In this document: piece after piece, positions 4,227 through 18,825 of the stretch
How positions within the stretch are numbered: the first letter of the stretch is position 1
Layout of the letters: every line of letters begins with the position of its first letter
Origin: a virus
IMG/VR virus record: IMGVR_UViG_3300032287_002786
Location: 1-21,341 of that record
Reading direction: 5' to 3' (one strand)
Length of the DNA: 21,341 nucleotides
Program-made: the position numbers and the translations under genes
Notes under the pieces: model-generated
What the model saw: only the letters and a program-made list of their open reading frames with translations
Databases searched by the model: none
What the model was told of the DNA's origin: nothing

Positions 4227-6026
4227 TTACTCTGCGGGTGCTTTTGCTTCTGGAGCCGCTCCACCACCAGCAGCAGCAGCTGGAGGAGGTCCAAATGCAG
4301 GAGGAGCCTCACCACCTCCACCGCCAGCAGGAACACCCTCACCTCCACCAGCAGGAGATGCAGGAGTTCCAGTAGGAACAGCACCACCAGAACCAGCGGC
4401 AAGAGGAACGCCTTCAACAGCTTCGCCTCCAGTTTTCCACATAGGTCCATTTGCTTGAATTTGAGCAAGTTCAAACTCAAGTTCTTTATCTTTTTTCAAG
4501 AATGCTCTATTTGCTAGAATTTCTTGGTCACTCCATCTCAAGTATTTCTTTTGAGCATATGTCTTAGATATGGATTCATTTTGAACCATACTATTGAATG
4601 TATTGTATTTTATTTCAGCTTTTTGAGCTTCTCTCATTTCAAAGAAATTGGTTGGGGGAGTAAATCTAAGCTCAAAATCATTTTCCTTCAGATCGTATTT
4701 TTCCCAAAGACCCTTTAATTTCAAGTGAACAATGAATGTATTCTTAATGCTTTCTGTAAAATACATTTGACTTCTCATAATGAACTTTGCGAATTTAAGT
4801 TCTTCTCTGAGCATTTGCATACCATCATTGTATCCAGAATCAGGTGATATTCGGTTCACTGGAACCTTGAGGGATTTATAAAGCTTCATTACGAAGTAAT
4901 CTAAATCAGGAAGGCTGTTAAGTTGCGGTCCTTCTGCGAGAGGAGTGACACTTGTTCCTTCGGAACCTTGTCTTTTTGCAAACCAATAATTGTCCAAATA
5001 GCTTTGAGGATTAAATTTATTGACTTGTCCAGCTTGATCAACGTCAAATGTTCGCTTTGACCAATATTCTTGGATCATTTTTCTCAAATATGCCTCTGCC
5101 TTCGGTGCTGGCATTGTTCCAACATCAACGTTGAAAACAAGTCTCGATGGTGCTCTTGCAAGTCTATAGATGACAACACTATCCTCAATAAGAGAAAGTT
5201 GTCTATACGCTCTTCTTGCATTTTCAATAAATGGAAGTCTAACAGTTTTATTTTCGTTCCAAATACCAGAATTAACATATGTAACTTGATTCTTGTCCAT
5301 TGGAATCAAGGCGTAATCTACAATTTTTGTCGGATTTGTTGGATCAAATACTGGTTTTCTTAACAAGTATCCTTTTATCAACATATTCTGAACATTTCCA
5401 AAAATAGGATCAATGAGTTCTGTTGGAATACTCACAATTCCAAGAACACCCTCTTCTTCTCTTTCTTTATGTATAATGTTTTCCCAATAAATTTCACCAT
5501 CCACCATCACACTTCTAAAGTATTCCCAACCTCTTTTTTCAAATTCAAAAAAACCAATGATTTTTTCAAACTCATCAGAAACATCTTTTTTAGCTTCACT
5601 TTTAAGTTTTTCAGTTGGAAATTGAATTGTTACAATTTGCCCATTGTCGTCTTTATTAATAGATTCATCGCAAATTTCATCTAATGCCTCGGCAACTTCT
5701 GAAAATGCTGCCATGACTCGATAATCACGAATTCTTGCAATTTTGTCCGCTTGGACATTTGAATACATGTATTGCGTGAAATTAGAGTCGATATTAAAAA
5801 ACGCAGTGGGAGATATATCATTGTATTCAGATGAGGAACTGATACTTTGTCTTGAAAGAGCCTCTGTTCTTTTAGATCCTGTATCTTGGAAGGTCTTGAA
5901 TTTGGGATTCAGCTTTGAAATAGTATCTATAACAGTATAAGATTGATATGGAAGATAAGAATTGACGTAGTTCATTAAACTACGTCCAAATGTTGATTCT
6001 CTTCCTGATGATGCATTTGCTGGCAT
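4227..6026 (-). CDS. 20: portal protein, T4 gp20-like, with Gly/Ala/Pro-rich tail
   Basis: 599 aa. This is the portal vertex protein, a dodecameric ring through which DNA is packaged and to which the neck attaches. Family-like blocks include RIRDYRVMAAFSEVAEALDE (about 98-117, the gp20 region reading RDYR...SEALDEICDE), a YWSKR block near 317, and LDNYWFAKRQGSEGT followed by LPDLDYFVMKLYKSLKVPVN, comparable to the FWLPRREG...KLYKSLNVP region of gp20. T4 gp20 has about 524 residues. The extra length is mainly a low-complexity tail (about 528-599) of Gly, Ala and Pro, encoded by GC-richer triplet-repeat-like DNA (about 4230-4420). An exact TATAAATA late promoter lies 5 nt before the ATG. Confidence 0.9.
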   Translation of the reverse strand: MPANASSGRESTFGRSLMNYVNSYLPYQSYTVIDTISKLNPKFKTFQDTGSKRTEALSRQSISSSSEYNDISPTAFFNIDSNFTQYMYSNVQADKIARIRDYRVMAAFSEVAEALDEICDESINKDDNGQIVTIQFPTEKLKSEAKKDVSDEFEKIIGFFEFEKRGWEYFRSVMVDGEIYWENIIHKEREEEGVLGIVSIPTELIDPIFGNVQNMLIKGYLLRKPVFDPTNPTKIVDYALIPMDKNQVTYVNSGIWNENKTVRLPFIENARRAYRQLSLIEDSVVIYRLARAPSRLVFNVDVGTMPAPKAEAYLRKMIQEYWSKRTFDVDQAGQVNKFNPQSYLDNYWFAKRQGSEGTSVTPLAEGPQLNSLPDLDYFVMKLYKSLKVPVNRISPDSGYNDGMQMLREELKFAKFIMRSQMYFTESIKNTFIVHLKLKGLWEKYDLKENDFELRFTPPTNFFEMREAQKAEIKYNTFNSMVQNESISKTYAQKKYLRWSDQEILANRAFLKKDKELEFELAQIQANGPMWKTGGEAVEGVPLAAGSGGAVPTGTPASPAGGGEGVPAGGGGGEAPPAFGPPPAAAAGGGAAPEAKAPAE

Positions 6027-8600: not shown

Positions 8601-9325
8601 TGTGGACTAAAAGATTCCCTTTGATTGGAGAGGATATTCCAGTCCTCTCCAAGGAAAGTCACACGTATTCTGATTCAACTGGAAAAGTATACAAATCGGT
8701 ATCGAGTATTCTTTCCACGATCAAACCAAAATTTGATGTTGATCAAAAGGCTTTGGAGTACTCTCAGAGGAAAAAAATACCATTCAATGATGTATTGAAG
8801 CTTTGGGAGGAAAAAAAGACAACTGGTTTGGACTATGGTACAGAAGTTCATGAAAGCGTTGAAGCATATTTTATCAATAGGGAAATAAAAAACGAAAGAT
8901 ATTCGGAAATTATCAAGAAAATATTTGAAGACGTGTATTCTGAAAAAGGTTATAACGAATTGATTTGTTTTAATAAACAAAAAGGAATATGTGGAACGTC
9001 TGATTATGTTGTTTTTGACGAGGATAGTTTCGATATATCTGATTTTAAAACGAATAAGAAATTTAATTTCGAAAACCAATATGATGATAAATTTCTTCTT
9101 GATCCAGTTTCACATTTACCGAATTCCGAGTATTTCATATATGCATTGCAGTTATCTTTTTATGCTAAAATGATAGAGGAAATAACTGGACTGAGATGTG
9201 GTTCTTTGAATATTTTTTGGTTGAAAAGACAAATAGATACTAAAACAGTTTTCAAAGCAAAATGGTTGAGATACACTGTACCCTATCTTAAAAAAGAAGT
9301 TGAATCAATTTTATGTCACGTATAA
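8600..9325 (+). CDS. PD-(D/E)XK nuclease, RecB/Cas4-like exonuclease
   Basis: 241 aa. The catalytic signature is visible in order: GTEVHESVE (80-88, with His 84 as in GxxxHxxxE), GTSDYVVFD (132-140, Asp 135), DISDFKT (145-151, Asp 148 and Lys 150 as the D-x-K metal site), and ALQLSFYA (182-189, the QxxxY motif of Cas4/RecB-type nucleases). The likely activity is metal-dependent DNA exonuclease action, used in recombination, end processing or host DNA breakdown. No iron-sulphur cysteine cluster is obvious, unlike classical Cas4. It is coupled to the small gene upstream (TAATG) and overlaps the dCMP deaminase gene by 13 nt. Confidence 0.78.
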   Translation: MWTKRFPLIGEDIPVLSKESHTYSDSTGKVYKSVSSILSTIKPKFDVDQKALEYSQRKKIPFNDVLKLWEEKKTTGLDYGTEVHESVEAYFINREIKNERYSEIIKKIFEDVYSEKGYNELICFNKQKGICGTSDYVVFDEDSFDISDFKTNKKFNFENQYDDKFLLDPVSHLPNSEYFIYALQLSFYAKMIEEITGLRCGSLNIFWLKRQIDTKTVFKAKWLRYTVPYLKKEVESILCHV

Positions 9326-9732
9326 GTTGGGAAAATTATGCATTGGAACTCGCAAAAACTGCGAGTATGCGATCAGAAGATCCGTATAAAAAAGTTGGGG
9401 CTTGTGCATTATCTTTTGATAATCGTGTATTGGGGGTTGCATACAATGGATTAAAGAGTGGTAAAAATCCAGATGTTTCTTTTTGGAAAGACAGAGATGC
9501 AAGAAGACCATATATGATTCATGCTGAAACAAATGTATTATCACTTTTTTCAAGAAATGAATGTCGGCTTCTTGCTGTAACTATGATGCCTTGTTCTTGT
9601 TGCGCTAGAATGATTTGCGCATGGAATATACCTGAAGTGGTATATTTTGAGGAATATAATAGCATCGAATCGAAATACAGTATGGATATATTTGAATTCT
9701 ATAATGTTAAAATTACAAAATTGGAAAATTGA
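9313..9732 (+). CDS. deoxycytidylate (dCMP) deaminase
   Basis: 139 aa. Zinc-dependent deaminase with HAE at 70-72 (His ligand and catalytic Glu 72) and PCSCC at 93-97 (Cys 94 and 97 as ligands). The N-terminal WENYALELAKTASMRSEDP block and the VGACALSFDNRVLGVAYNG strand are typical of phage and bacterial dCMP deaminases. It converts dCMP to dUMP, feeding thymidylate synthesis during phage replication. Substrate is inferred from family resemblance; a tRNA or nucleoside deaminase is less likely given the N-terminal block. The start overlaps the nuclease gene by 13 nt. A divergent second deaminase follows after one base. Confidence 0.85.
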   Translation: MSRISWENYALELAKTASMRSEDPYKKVGACALSFDNRVLGVAYNGLKSGKNPDVSFWKDRDARRPYMIHAETNVLSLFSRNECRLLAVTMMPCSCCARMICAWNIPEVVYFEEYNSIESKYSMDIFEFYNVKITKLEN

Positions 9733-9733
9733 T

Positions 9734-10177
9734 ATGGCTTCTTTAAAACAAAAAAAATTACAGAAATTTGTTGAGATAGCGAAAGCGATGCAGCCGATAC
9801 ACCACTCTTATCCGACGATAAGAACGTTTCATGTGACATTTGCAATGCATAAACAAAGAACGGTGGCAATAGGAATCAACAATTACAAAACACACCCAAA
9901 TATAAAAAAGTTAAATTATCAATCCGAAGAAGGGGAAGACTTGCGTGATGTTGCAAGAGTTCATTCCGAGTTCAATTGTATTTCAAAATTACAAAATAAA
10001 ATGGACATTGAGAGTTTTGATGATATTGTTTTTGTGAACATACGTCTTGACAGAATGGGGAATGTAAGGTATTCTAGGCCATGTAATGGTTGCACCCACT
10101 TAATGAATCAAGTGGGTTATAAGAAAATATATTATTCTGGTGACTGTGGAAATTTTTTTGAAATGGAGAATCAATGA
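9734..10177 (+). CDS. second CDA-fold deaminase-like protein
   Basis: 147 aa from the ATG at 9734; an ATG at 9647 in the same frame would overlap the dCMP deaminase by 86 nt and is rejected. It carries its own zinc-deaminase signature, HSE at 77-79 (in VHSEFNCIS) and PCNGC at 116-120 (Cys 117 and 120), so it is probably catalytically intact. Apart from those motifs it is unlike its neighbour: the His-x-Glu has Ser rather than Ala, and a longer insert separates the motifs. The substrate is not predictable; a modified nucleotide, a free base or a nucleic acid is possible. The SD GGAG and start of the next gene lie in its 3' end (ATGA overlap). Confidence 0.75.
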   Translation: MASLKQKKLQKFVEIAKAMQPIHHSYPTIRTFHVTFAMHKQRTVAIGINNYKTHPNIKKLNYQSEEGEDLRDVARVHSEFNCISKLQNKMDIESFDDIVFVNIRLDRMGNVRYSRPCNGCTHLMNQVGYKKIYYSGDCGNFFEMENQ

Positions 10178-10754: not shown

Positions 10755-10880
10755 ATGAGTAAAAATTATTCAAACCAAGCTGGTAAAGGTGACAAATATC
10801 GTCCAGTTGATGTTAAAAAATACAACGATAATTTTGATTCGATCAAGTGGAAATCAAAGGATAAAAAAGACAAAAAGTAA
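10755..10880 (+). CDS. 41-aa GKGDKYRPVD-motif phage protein
   Basis: 41 aa. It contains NQAGKGDKYRPVDVKKYNDNF, resembling a very small protein motif (GKGDxxRPxDxxKYxxN) that I have seen in many phage genomes, with no known function. The C-terminus is almost entirely Lys/Asp. The ATG is 2 nt after the stop of the previous gene and the stop overlaps the ABC-GNAT start as TAATG, so the three genes are an operon with coupled translation. The motif makes it credible despite its size. Confidence 0.7.
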   Translation: MSKNYSNQAGKGDKYRPVDVKKYNDNFDSIKWKSKDKKDKK

Positions 10881-11986
10881 TGTCCCAAATCGTACTTGAA
10901 TCCAATATTCAACATGATGAATATACATCGAAAACATCTAGTTTTTTCGATGTTCCATTTTCGGAAAAAAGTAAGGTAGTCATCGAAAATAACATAGAAC
11001 TTCCAGATGAATGGCAAATGGGTTTAATATATGGACCGAGCGGAAGTGGTAAAAGTACGCTTTTAAAAACATTCGGAAACATATCAACTCCGACTTGGGA
11101 TAACGATAAATCTTTAATATCAAATTTCAATCCAATAGAATTTGAGCGAGCATCGAAGGTTTTATGTGCTGTTGGATTGTCCACCATTCCAACTTGGTTC
11201 AGGTCTTTTAATGTTTTATCTAATGGCGAACAGTTCAGAGCAAATCTTGCGAAGTCTTTGATTGATGATAAAGAGGTTCAATTGATAGATGAATATACTA
11301 GTGTTATAGATAGAACGGTTGCTAAATCAGCATCACACTCTATTTCGAAATGGATAAGAAAAGAAAATAAAAAGAAAGTAATATTTGCTTCTTGTCACGA
11401 AGATATTATAGAGTGGTTGCAGCCAGATTGGATATACAATCCCCTTGAAGGAAAAACAATCCTTCCGAGGGGTTGTCTTCAGCGACCTCAAATTGAACTT
11501 AAAATTTTCAGAGCAAAATATTCGGCGTGGGAGTTATTCAAACAATATCATTATTTGAGTAGTGATTTGAATAAAGCGGCAAAATGTTTTATTGCATTTT
11601 GGAACAATATACCTGTTGCTTTTAATGCAACCTTGTCATTTCCTCATCCATCTGTTAAAAATGCATGGAGAGGTAGTAGAACTATAGTATTACCAGACTA
11701 TCAAGGTCTTGGTATAGGCTCAAGATTATCAGATCATGTTGCGAGTATGGTTGCTGCTAAAGGTGGTAGATATTTTTCCAAGACCATACATCCTTCTATG
11801 ATAGAATATAGATTGAAAAATAAAAATTGGAAAGAAACAACGCACTCTAGAAAAGCAAGAAACCCTTCTAATAAAAGTATGCTTGCTAGAAATTGGAATG
11901 CTACATCGAGATTTTGTTATGCCTTTGAATATGTAGGTAAAGCCTCTACTGAGGAAGAGGCTAATGTTTTTTGGGAGAAATGTTGA
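10880..11986 (+). CDS. ABC-type ATPase fused to a GNAT acetyltransferase domain
   Basis: 368 aa with two domains. The first (about 45-190) is a soluble ABC-type ATPase: Walker A GPSGSGKST at 52-60, signature LSNGEQ at 113-118, Walker B VQLIDE at 133-138, and a His switch SCH at 171-173. Only about 53 residues separate Walker A from the signature, shorter than transporter ABC domains, and no membrane segment exists. The second (about 205-365) resembles GNAT acetyltransferases, with the acyl-CoA loop QGLGIG at 275-280 and a following helix. The architecture matches COG2401, described as an ABC ATPase fused to a predicted acetyltransferase. The substrate is unknown; translation- or nucleic-acid-linked acetylation is one guess. 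Confidence 0.82.
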   Translation: MSQIVLESNIQHDEYTSKTSSFFDVPFSEKSKVVIENNIELPDEWQMGLIYGPSGSGKSTLLKTFGNISTPTWDNDKSLISNFNPIEFERASKVLCAVGLSTIPTWFRSFNVLSNGEQFRANLAKSLIDDKEVQLIDEYTSVIDRTVAKSASHSISKWIRKENKKKVIFASCHEDIIEWLQPDWIYNPLEGKTILPRGCLQRPQIELKIFRAKYSAWELFKQYHYLSSDLNKAAKCFIAFWNNIPVAFNATLSFPHPSVKNAWRGSRTIVLPDYQGLGIGSRLSDHVASMVAAKGGRYFSKTIHPSMIEYRLKNKNWKETTHSRKARNPSNKSMLARNWNATSRFCYAFEYVGKASTEEEANVFWEKC

Positions 11987-13961: not shown

Positions 13962-14744
13962 TTACCAAGATTTTTTACCATAACCTAAAATAAACCCTTC
14001 TGGTATTATTGAGTCTGGTTTTACTCTTTTTCTTATTTTTAATATAGGATCATGTATGTAAATTAAACCTTTGACATTTTTATTATTTTTAGCATTAAAA
14101 TTTCCCTTAACCCATCCTTTTGGAATTTGTTGATCGGGTCTTATTCTTCTTGTTTCTTTTGTTTCAAAATTACAAATACTAATCATTCCCTTTGTATTTA
14201 AAGGGCAACCCATGATCCAACCTTTTGGCAATTGATCAATTTTCTCTATTCTGGTTCTTTCTAGTGTTTTTGGGTTATAACAATGTTTTAAATTTTTAGT
14301 TCTTTTCTGTCTTTTTGCTGACCAACTAAATCTTTCGCTAAAATATTTTTTAAATTTAGAGTATAAATTGGAATTAAAATATCTATTTGGTAAAGCTTTA
14401 TTGTTTATCGTTTTCATTCTCAAAAAAGCGTTTATCATTTTATATCTATAGATATTAATAAACATTTTAACTAATAAAGCGTGAACAACAAAATGTTCTT
14501 TGGATGTCAAAAATACTATATTTTCATTTTTACTATCATAGTTTATTTTTTTAAAAGAATTTGGATAAATGTGATGACCTTCGGTATAACCAAATAATAA
14601 TTTAGCTTCTTTTTTATTAAGGTTTCTTTTTAGTGCTTTATCTATAATATTAAAATACCATTTTGTATATTTGTTTTCTAGTGCTATAGTACAAACATAA
14701 TCTAGATAAAAGTTATTTGATGTATAAATATTTTTGCTGGACAT
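13962..14744 (-). CDS. HNH homing endonuclease with three C-terminal repeats
   Basis: 260 aa, antisense to the surrounding operons. The HNH core is GYTEGHHIYPNSF (52-64) with NIVFLTSKEHFVVHALL (75-91), typical of free-standing phage HNH homing enzymes. A basic linker follows, then three copies of about 26 residues (starting near 154, 189 and 229) of the form 'hhxxxTxxxxRIxxxxxxPxGWxxG' (PKGWIMG, PKGWVKG, PEGFILG). Such repeats probably bind DNA and set target specificity. Its stop is 3 nt from the stop of the rightward HNH gene, and its start lies 26 nt before a rightward terminator. No clear promoter or SD is seen upstream of its ATG. Confidence 0.82.
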   Translation of the reverse strand: MSSKNIYTSNNFYLDYVCTIALENKYTKWYFNIIDKALKRNLNKKEAKLLFGYTEGHHIYPNSFKKINYDSKNENIVFLTSKEHFVVHALLVKMFINIYRYKMINAFLRMKTINNKALPNRYFNSNLYSKFKKYFSERFSWSAKRQKRTKNLKHCYNPKTLERTRIEKIDQLPKGWIMGCPLNTKGMISICNFETKETRRIRPDQQIPKGWVKGNFNAKNNKNVKGLIYIHDPILKIRKRVKPDSIIPEGFILGYGKKSW

Positions 14745-17994: not shown

Positions 17995-18825
17995 TTAAAT
18001 TATACCTTTTATTTTTAATGAATTTAAATGTTTTTTATAATTTCCTGCATTAAAACATTTATTACAATGTTTACACTCAGTAGTAAGTGTTTTGGCTTTT
18101 TCTGATATTTTTTTTCTAACATCTTTGTTTTTAGCGGGATTTAAATCGCCATTCATTTCTGGTCTTAATCTACCTTTACCAGTAGTTCCATTTTTTAATT
18201 TTGTTTCATTCGCTTTTAGTATAGAAAATTGTATTTGTTCTGATGTTCTTTTTCTTTTAGTTTGATTTGATTTTAACACTGCAATTCGTATTTGTTCTGG
18301 TGTTTTTTTGCTGCTTACTATTTTATGCGATTCTGACATTTTTAATAATGTTTCCTTTGTATATTTTCTATTTACACATCGTTTATTACCTTTAGCCATT
18401 TCAGATATTTTTCTTTTTGTTTCTTCTGAATGCTTTTTACCAAAAAAATGATTGTTGGAACCACTGATAGTTTTCTTGAATTCTTCACTTCTTACTACAC
18501 CACTTGAACCAGTACCGCCATCGCATCTATTTCTTAAAATACCAGTATTATTGTCAATTCTACCCCACCATGCTATCAATCTTCTTTCTAATGCAAGTGC
18601 TCCCAATTCGGTTAAATTATTTTCTAATATTACTATATATTTTTTATTCGGCATATGAACCGATGTGTGTTTTCCTTTATTTTCATTAGTCCACGCTCTT
18701 CTACCACTACCTTTTCCTATATAATATGGAGTTCCTGCTTTTGCAATTTTAGAATTTTTTTCACGTATATATGCGTACACGTAAAACCTTAAAGGATTAT
18801 TATTGTTTTTCATAGTTTGTCGCAT
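17995..18825 (-). CDS. GIY-YIG homing endonuclease with NUMOD-like repeats and C-terminal zinc finger
   Basis: 276 aa, antisense to the adjoining operons. N-terminal GIY-YIG domain: VYAYI (16-20) and [10 protein letters not shown] (34-43), catalytic Glu 80 in LALERRL, and NRCDGGTG (99-106). Then NUMOD3-like DNA-binding motifs ([20 protein letters not shown] near 123-142 and [17 protein letters not shown] near 235-251). The C-terminus has a CKHCNKC...KKH zinc-finger-like end. It should cut a specific DNA site and spread itself; no intron is evident, so it is free-standing. GATAAATA (late-like) lies 3 nt before the ATG on the minus strand, and a GGTGGAG SD-like sequence upstream lies in the stem of a large hairpin. 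A second in-frame ATG exists at residue 5. Confidence 0.86.

Follow-up and report, generated by a model that had tools for sequence, protein, structure and literature searches.

A GNAT acyltransferase coupled to an ABC ATPase was predicted by Iyer, Zhang, Burroughs, and Aravind to catalyze acyl modification of a DNA base, with Tenacibaculum phage pT24 as an example (Iyer et al., 2013, 2021; PMC7824862). ParB-acetyltransferase fusions, one of which binds GTP, represent a related architecture, and the portion of the source that deals with them mentions no ABC domain (PMC12704722). In Dpd-type 7-deazaguanine modification a ParB-like NTPase (DpdB) likewise pairs with a base-modifying enzyme (PMC12839542), although the reaction is a base exchange catalyzed by a transglycosylase, as opposed to the acyl transfer envisaged for ABC-GNAT. 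In the literature searched, we found no experimental study of an ABC-GNAT fusion, no measured activity for any member of the family, and no paper using the term COG2401.

Mom, the adenine methylcarbamoylase of phage Mu (PF25680; PDB 8bv8), is assigned by the literature to the GNAT superfamily; it is very basic, sometimes has ParB encoded upstream (phages Appa, Martha, and Wyborn), and occupies matched genomic sites in related phages, all of which is reminiscent of ABC-GNAT, but it has no ABC ATPase. The RNA cytidine acetyltransferases TmcA and NAT10, which make N4-acetylcytidine, have a P-loop ATPase coupled to a GNAT domain in one chain and target a nucleobase, as would ABC-GNAT proteins; however, their ATPase is of the helicase type rather than the ABC type.

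By its sequence, the gene described here belongs to the kind predicted by Iyer et al., represented in PHROGs by phrog_11143, and it shares with the pT24 system the same two domains and the same predicted role. The pT24 protein is the second-best match among named phages (a single match, 42.3% identity over 96%, E 1e-86). Our copy is intact and stands alone, whereas in the deposited pT24 copy (L001:8001-9173), annotated as two genes, codon 254 within the GNAT part is an in-frame TGA; this could reflect a broken gene, a sequencing error, or recoding.

The ABC-GNAT gene and its two domains

The gene is located in a 21,341-nt stretch of viral DNA (the window) that is part of a tailed phage, and that also encodes a primase, an exonuclease, a dCMP deaminase, an RNA ligase, and a portal-like protein (4227-6026, judged by eye). 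No close named relatives of the window were retrieved by DNA search. The ORF and its features are as follows, with conservation given across 70 relatives:

10880..11986, + strand: ABC-ATPase/GNAT fusion ORF, 368 aa (phrog_11143 match; dN/dS ~0.13 relative to L007)
10880..11476, + strand: ABC-type ATPase domain, residues 1-199 (PF00005, 3.9e-9; matches to solved ABC cassettes)
11033..11056, + strand: Walker A, GPSGSGKS, residues 52-59 (G52, S54, G55, G57, and K58 invariant)
11216..11233, + strand: ABC signature, LSNGEQ, residues 113-118 (S114 and G116 invariant; E117 in 69 of 70)
11279..11314, + strand: Walker B, catalytic Glu, and D-loop, QLIDEYTSVIDR, residues 134-145 (D137, E138, S141, and R145 invariant)
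11390..11404, + strand: switch histidine region, SCHED, residues 171-175, with H173 (C172, H173, and D175 invariant)
11492..11941, + strand: GNAT acyltransferase domain, residues 205-354 (PF00583, 3.1e-5; domain model; RimI/Naa50-like folds)
11549..11557, + strand: HYL, residues 224-226, candidate substrate-side motif (H224 and Y225 invariant)
11678..11719, + strand: GNAT beta4 and acyl-CoA pyrophosphate loop, RTIVLPDYQGLGIG, residues 267-280 (R267, P272, Q275, G276, and G280 invariant)

The fusion ORF is complete, with an ATG start and a TGA stop, and a 41-aa ORF upstream ends at 10881. The Pfam matches of the encoded protein to ABC_tran (3.9e-9) and Acetyltransf_1 (3.1e-5) both exceed the gathering scores, and residues 3-358 match phrog_11143 (3e-118), of which the protein is a full-length member and which has no named function in PHROGs. 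An AlphaFold2 model constructed from the 70 relatives comprises two confident domains (pLDDT 90.6, pTM 0.85). These domain and fold matches are far above chance; the structure matches indicate folds, not function. Comparison with L007 (76% aa identity) gave dS 1.37, dN 0.17, and dN/dS ~0.13, with dS high enough to make the ratio imprecise, and dN/dS ~0.11 over the GNAT part; judged by this comparison, the fusion gene is under purifying selection.

Residues 1-200 of the model align to solved ABC cassettes with Z 14.4 over 172 residues (rmsd 2.8), and the acidic ABC domain (pI 5.5) shares with transporter and non-transporter ABC ATPases the Walker A, signature, Walker B, D-loop (S141..D144-R145), switch histidine, and fold (Z ~14). 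It differs from them in the distance between the Walker A Lys and the signature Ser, which has a median of 56 residues across the relatives (range 50-60) compared to ~95 residues in typical ABC ATPases. Furthermore, none of the alignment columns between Walker A and signature reaches 90% glutamine among the 70 relatives, so the usual Q-loop is not visible. No permease family was recognized among the neighboring window ORFs scanned with Pfam and PHROGs (a scan that covered part of the small ORFs), and none is annotated beside the homologs in named phages; a transporter function was rejected on this basis. W184 and, in the GNAT domain, F220 are also invariant across the 70 relatives.

Modeled alone, the GNAT domain has a pLDDT of 91.1 and matches solved structure 1y9k with Z 13.5 and RimI with Z 13.0, with GNATs filling the match list (Z 11.8-13.5); residues 205-355 of the full model likewise align to GNATs (Z ~13). 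The conserved loop P-D-x-Q275-G-x-G-x-G280, which reads Q275-G-L-G-I-G280 in the window protein, fits the acyl-CoA-binding pattern Q/R-x-x-G-x-G/A. The GNAT part is basic (pI 9.8 for window residues 199-368), as in the family (median 9.75) and in Mu Mom (10.0), these being the proteins compared. Nevertheless, the domain was rejected as a Mom: the window protein has no PF25680 match up to E 0.1 in Pfam, against which Mom proteins score 7e-59 to 2e-75 or 6e-56; profile comparison with Mom by hhalign gave a probability of 1.7%; of the Mom alignment motifs, HYS reads HYL and SFAD is absent; and the Mom structure 8bv8 is not among the best 50 structure matches listed.

A first-pass annotation of this DNA had described the same ORF, recovered here with identical coordinates, and had reported intact Walker A, signature, Walker B, and switch histidine motifs, a very short gap between Walker A and signature, no transporter parts, and a GNAT acyl-CoA loop. 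All of these observations hold, and the motifs and the loop are invariant or nearly so across the 70 relatives. Regarding the absence of an acyl-CoA pocket or loss of catalytic residues, which it had considered as grounds for dismissing the GNAT domain, the part of this check that was run found the predicted GNAT fold and motifs intact.

Other ORFs of the window also merit description. A second deaminase-like ORF (9647-10177, + strand; PF00383, 9e-6) directly follows the dCMP deaminase gene (9313-9732) and has the zinc-type motifs HSE and PCNGC. A homing-endonuclease-like ORF (13962-14744, - strand) has no counterpart in the near-identical contig L005, in which the flanking genes are 6 bases apart (5210, 5216) compared to 900 in the window, which suggests that L005 has the empty site of a mobile insertion. 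Another candidate mobile-endonuclease ORF, GIY-YIG-like by eye, is at 17995-18825 (- strand), opposite in strand to its neighbors.

Family distribution, ParB partners, and accessory genes

The ABC-GNAT family is widespread: its members occur in phages whose hosts differ greatly and in prophages across many bacteria. Relatives were identified by tblastn in 77 phage records, all at <60% identity and 47 of them at >=80% coverage, and by profile scan in at least 590 confirmed stretches of viral contigs and in 464 stretches of bacterial and archaeal genomes. Many of the best 80 of these 464 cellular-assembly loci have a phage-like setting, with a terminase-like neighbor family in 20 and a portal-like one in 14 (identities by eye). 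Separate ORFs, adjacent or overlapping, encode the ABC and GNAT parts in phages of Streptococcus, Lactococcus, Oenococcus, Thomasclavelia, and Enterococcus, which suggests that the two parts work as a complex even when unfused. Phage or phage-plasmid records from Klebsiella, Rhizobium, and Acinetobacter show the gene order ParB, an ABC of the same type, phrog_886, then terminase; in Klebsiella, the phrog_886 protein has only a weak similarity to the beginning of the phrog_11143 GNAT part (E 0.001). PHROGs names phrog_886 (for example L196:6063-6953) an "ABC transporter ATP-binding subunit," yet Pfam recognizes no ABC_tran domain in three of its members, and the name looks wrong.

A ParB-domain gene was identified in 67 of 79 cellular-assembly loci, in 52 of them <=100 bp upstream (median gap of upstream ParB in this set, 4 bases), and in 10 of the 80 viral loci nearest the window; these fractions describe samples of top-ranked relatives, and the E-values of our home-made profiles derive from small sets, with some of the counted loci having also helped to build those profiles. 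In L120, ParB, ABC, and GNAT are encoded in a single chain of 611 aa, with the ParB part recognized by a home-made profile (2e-7) and without a match to the ParB model of Pfam.

The ParB proteins that partner ABC-GNAT have in common a C-terminal tail of ~35 residues, which differs in the Mom-partnered ParBs of Martha and Appa and in those of Sour and MakoManhole. The tail also occurs as a free ORF of 42-49 aa in Porphyromonas and Pseudomonas Mu-like phages. Free tail ORFs are located directly before ABC-GNAT (L019:3876-4004 and L020:3819-3968); the Porphyromonas one is annotated as an "acr candidate," but is more likely to be a subunit of the modification cassette.

Other genes adjacent to ABC-GNAT encode enzymes that fit an acyl chemistry. 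A gene for a formyltransferase (PF00551) follows ABC-GNAT in three of the phages examined; by analogy with the chemistry of PurN, and as speculation, this enzyme would formylate the transferred amino-acyl group. In the Gordonia/Rhodococcus phage Jace (L013:5098-6209), ABC-GNAT is directly followed by genes for an aspartate decarboxylase (2e-33) and a CoA-transferase III fragment (2e-8), suggesting the supply of an unusual acyl-CoA. In Streptococcus phages, ASCH-domain genes (PF04266; L018:5116-5493 and L022:5102-5470) are located downstream of the split ABC and GNAT genes, and their products are possible readers or erasers of an acylated base.

The window copy belongs to a part of the family with few such partners. 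In a FastTree phylogeny of 171 proteins it falls in a set of 78 (support 99%), of which 76 are without ParB and tail, and searches for ParB and formyltransferase were negative in the window, in a related contig of 116 kb, and in the genomes of pT24, P12024S, VmeM-32, and PX29. A free ParB-tail peptide encoded upstream of the window gene was considered and rejected, as the 41-aa ORF has no match to the ParB-tail profile. Because this clade is mostly ParB-free, the function of the window copy is inferred from the family; a DNA-modification role for this copy would rest on its homology to the family and the catalytic residues in common rather than on its own neighborhood, and the solo clade may have diverged in target.

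Exchange of ABC-GNAT and DNA-modification cassettes in related phages

The replacement of ABC-GNAT by other cassettes at matched sites is the main new evidence for the function of the family. In the Sourvirus-type Gordonia phages Axumite, Sour, MakoManhole, and LittleMunchkin, the locus opens with a ParB gene and closes with a terminase gene; compared to Axumite, the ParB proteins are 57-66% and the terminases 73-85% identical (aa), with DNA homology at both borders. Between these genes, Axumite encodes ABC-GNAT (like the window protein, full-length phrog_11143) and a formyltransferase. The same slot in Sour is occupied by genes for 7-deazaguanine modification (queuine transglycosylase, QueC, QueD-like, radical SAM, and GTP cyclohydrolase I), and in MakoManhole by genes for a TET/JBP-like oxygenase, an ADDT amino acid:DNA transferase (6e-26), and a P-loop nucleotide kinase (9e-59); the TET/JBP-like match is weak (6e-4, below the Pfam cut-off), and PHROGs calls its family a queuine transferase. 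LittleMunchkin has the same order as MakoManhole by annotation. Gene sets of the Sour and MakoManhole types are of the kinds that make DNA-base hypermodifications. The annotations of the named phages were checked in part with Pfam and PHROGs.

Sites shared with Mom were identified in other phages. Arthrobacter phage EastWest encodes ABC-GNAT at the site where Martha and Wyborn carry Mom (PF25680, 4e-61 and 7e-59), with homologous flanks; the DNA match ends inside the ParB gene, near the tail, such that the tail and the enzyme appear to be exchanged together. The Porphyromonas Mu-like phages phage011a and phage012a match at 87% identity over 3.7 kb up to the site and again over the last 91 bases, with ABC-GNAT and a formyltransferase in the former and Mom (PF25680, 6e-56) in the latter. 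Pseudomonas phage Komp_PAO1_1 perhaps also carries ABC-GNAT at the Mom site of JD024, a weaker case because the matching flank, upstream, is only ~200 bp. Aeromonas phage PX29 (L012) encodes ABC-GNAT and, far from it, a Mom-like protein; the two are therefore not mutually exclusive. No description of the swaps, the ParB tail module, or the acyl accessory genes was found in the literature searched, although the 2013 paper of Iyer et al. may hold some of these neighborhoods.

Predicted function of the ABC-GNAT system

We posit that the gene probably encodes a DNA base-acylating enzyme, by which the phage marks its own genome and so evades host restriction. Both the positional swaps with Mom, 7-deazaguanine, and ADDT cassettes and the ParB partner indicate that the target is DNA: family members are in slots otherwise held by DNA-base modification genes, and ParB accompanies most members outside the clade of the window and is fused to ABC-GNAT in L120. 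The same reading is supported by the cassette-specific ParB tail, also present as a free ORF, by the accessory enzymes of acyl type (formyltransferase; aspartate decarboxylase with CoA-transferase), by the basic GNAT domain with a pI close to that of Mu Mom, and by the prediction of Iyer et al. Against it, the GNAT domain has no detectable relation to Mom; the nearest solved folds, RimI and Naa50, are protein acetyltransferases, although these are generic GNAT matches; and, for the window copy in particular, most of the swap and ParB evidence is drawn from other clades.

The fold matches, which also include NatD, could instead indicate a protein acetyltransferase for host takeover or anti-defense that acetylates a host RNA polymerase, ribosomal, or defense protein, gated by ATP binding. 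The solo clade without a ParB partner would be compatible with such a role, and phage GNATs that modify RNA polymerase have been described (phiKMV Rac, cited in PMC7824862). However, the presence of the family at sites where relatives carry DNA-modification cassettes, the ParB partner and ParB fusion, and the strongly basic GNAT domain make a protein target unlikely. Acylation of a base in tRNA, rRNA, or mRNA would, by analogy, follow the same general logic as TmcA, in which an ATPase and a GNAT act on a nucleobase; in addition, ASCH genes lie next to the split genes for ABC and GNAT in Streptococcus phages, and an ASCH-like ORF is present in seven cellular-assembly loci (by eye). YqfB, a bacterial ASCH protein, is an N4-acetylcytidine amidohydrolase. 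ASCH domains are nevertheless common in phages, so that this association is weak; there is no TmcA-type GNAT family among the Pfam matches of the window protein up to E 0.1, and the swapped cassettes consist of DNA, not RNA, modification genes. An RNA target seems quite improbable.

It is also conceivable, with very low probability, that the GNAT domain is degenerate and non-catalytic and the protein an ABC protein with a regulatory or scaffold-like role, given that no general-base residue was assigned and the acceptor-side catalytic residues are not defined. This is at odds with the near-invariance of R267, the loop Q275-G-x-G-x-G280, and H224-Y225 across the 70 relatives, with the low dN/dS over the GNAT part, and with the acyl-metabolism genes located beside other family members.

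For DNA base acylation, the favored function, a mechanism can be proposed. Two ABC domains would come together as an ATP-sandwich dimer, gripping DNA or opening it so that a base is offered to the basic GNAT domain. This domain would take an acyl group from acyl-CoA and attach it to an exocyclic amine of the base (N6 of adenine, N4 of cytosine, or N2 of guanine); ATP hydrolysis would then reset the complex for the next site, and the acylated bases would protect the phage genome from restriction. In ParB-bearing members, ParB would supply DNA targeting, whereas the enzymes of the mostly ParB-free clade of the window would work unaided, with acetyl-CoA as the simplest donor.

More tentatively, ABC-GNAT proteins might form an ATP-driven class of DNA base acylases in which accessory genes set the acyl group (a formylated group in some Mu-like and Gordonia phages, a beta-alanyl-like one in Jace, and probably acetyl in solo members such as that of the window), yielding at least one undescribed DNA base, with the ParB tail serving as a docking module that specifies the modification enzyme to be recruited by the targeting protein; we regard this broader scheme as possible rather than probable.

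The first-pass annotation was accurate in recognizing, in a phage, an intact non-transporter ABC ATPase fused to a GNAT with an acyl-CoA loop, and its idea of ATP-gated acyl transfer is plausible. Its statement that such a fusion, which it called COG2401-like, has no known function is superseded by the earlier prediction of Iyer et al. of acyl modification of a DNA base. The new mechanism that it envisaged, acetylation of a host or phage target, finds no support as protein acetylation, as the swaps and the ParB partner point to DNA.

If DNA base acylation is correct, phages possess a base chemistry, powered by an ABC ATPase, that is still unexplored; it would help to explain their escape from restriction and would be a source of DNA-labeling enzymes. 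As the Gordonia phages Axumite, Sour, and MakoManhole differ at this locus, they make the question of DNA modification directly testable.
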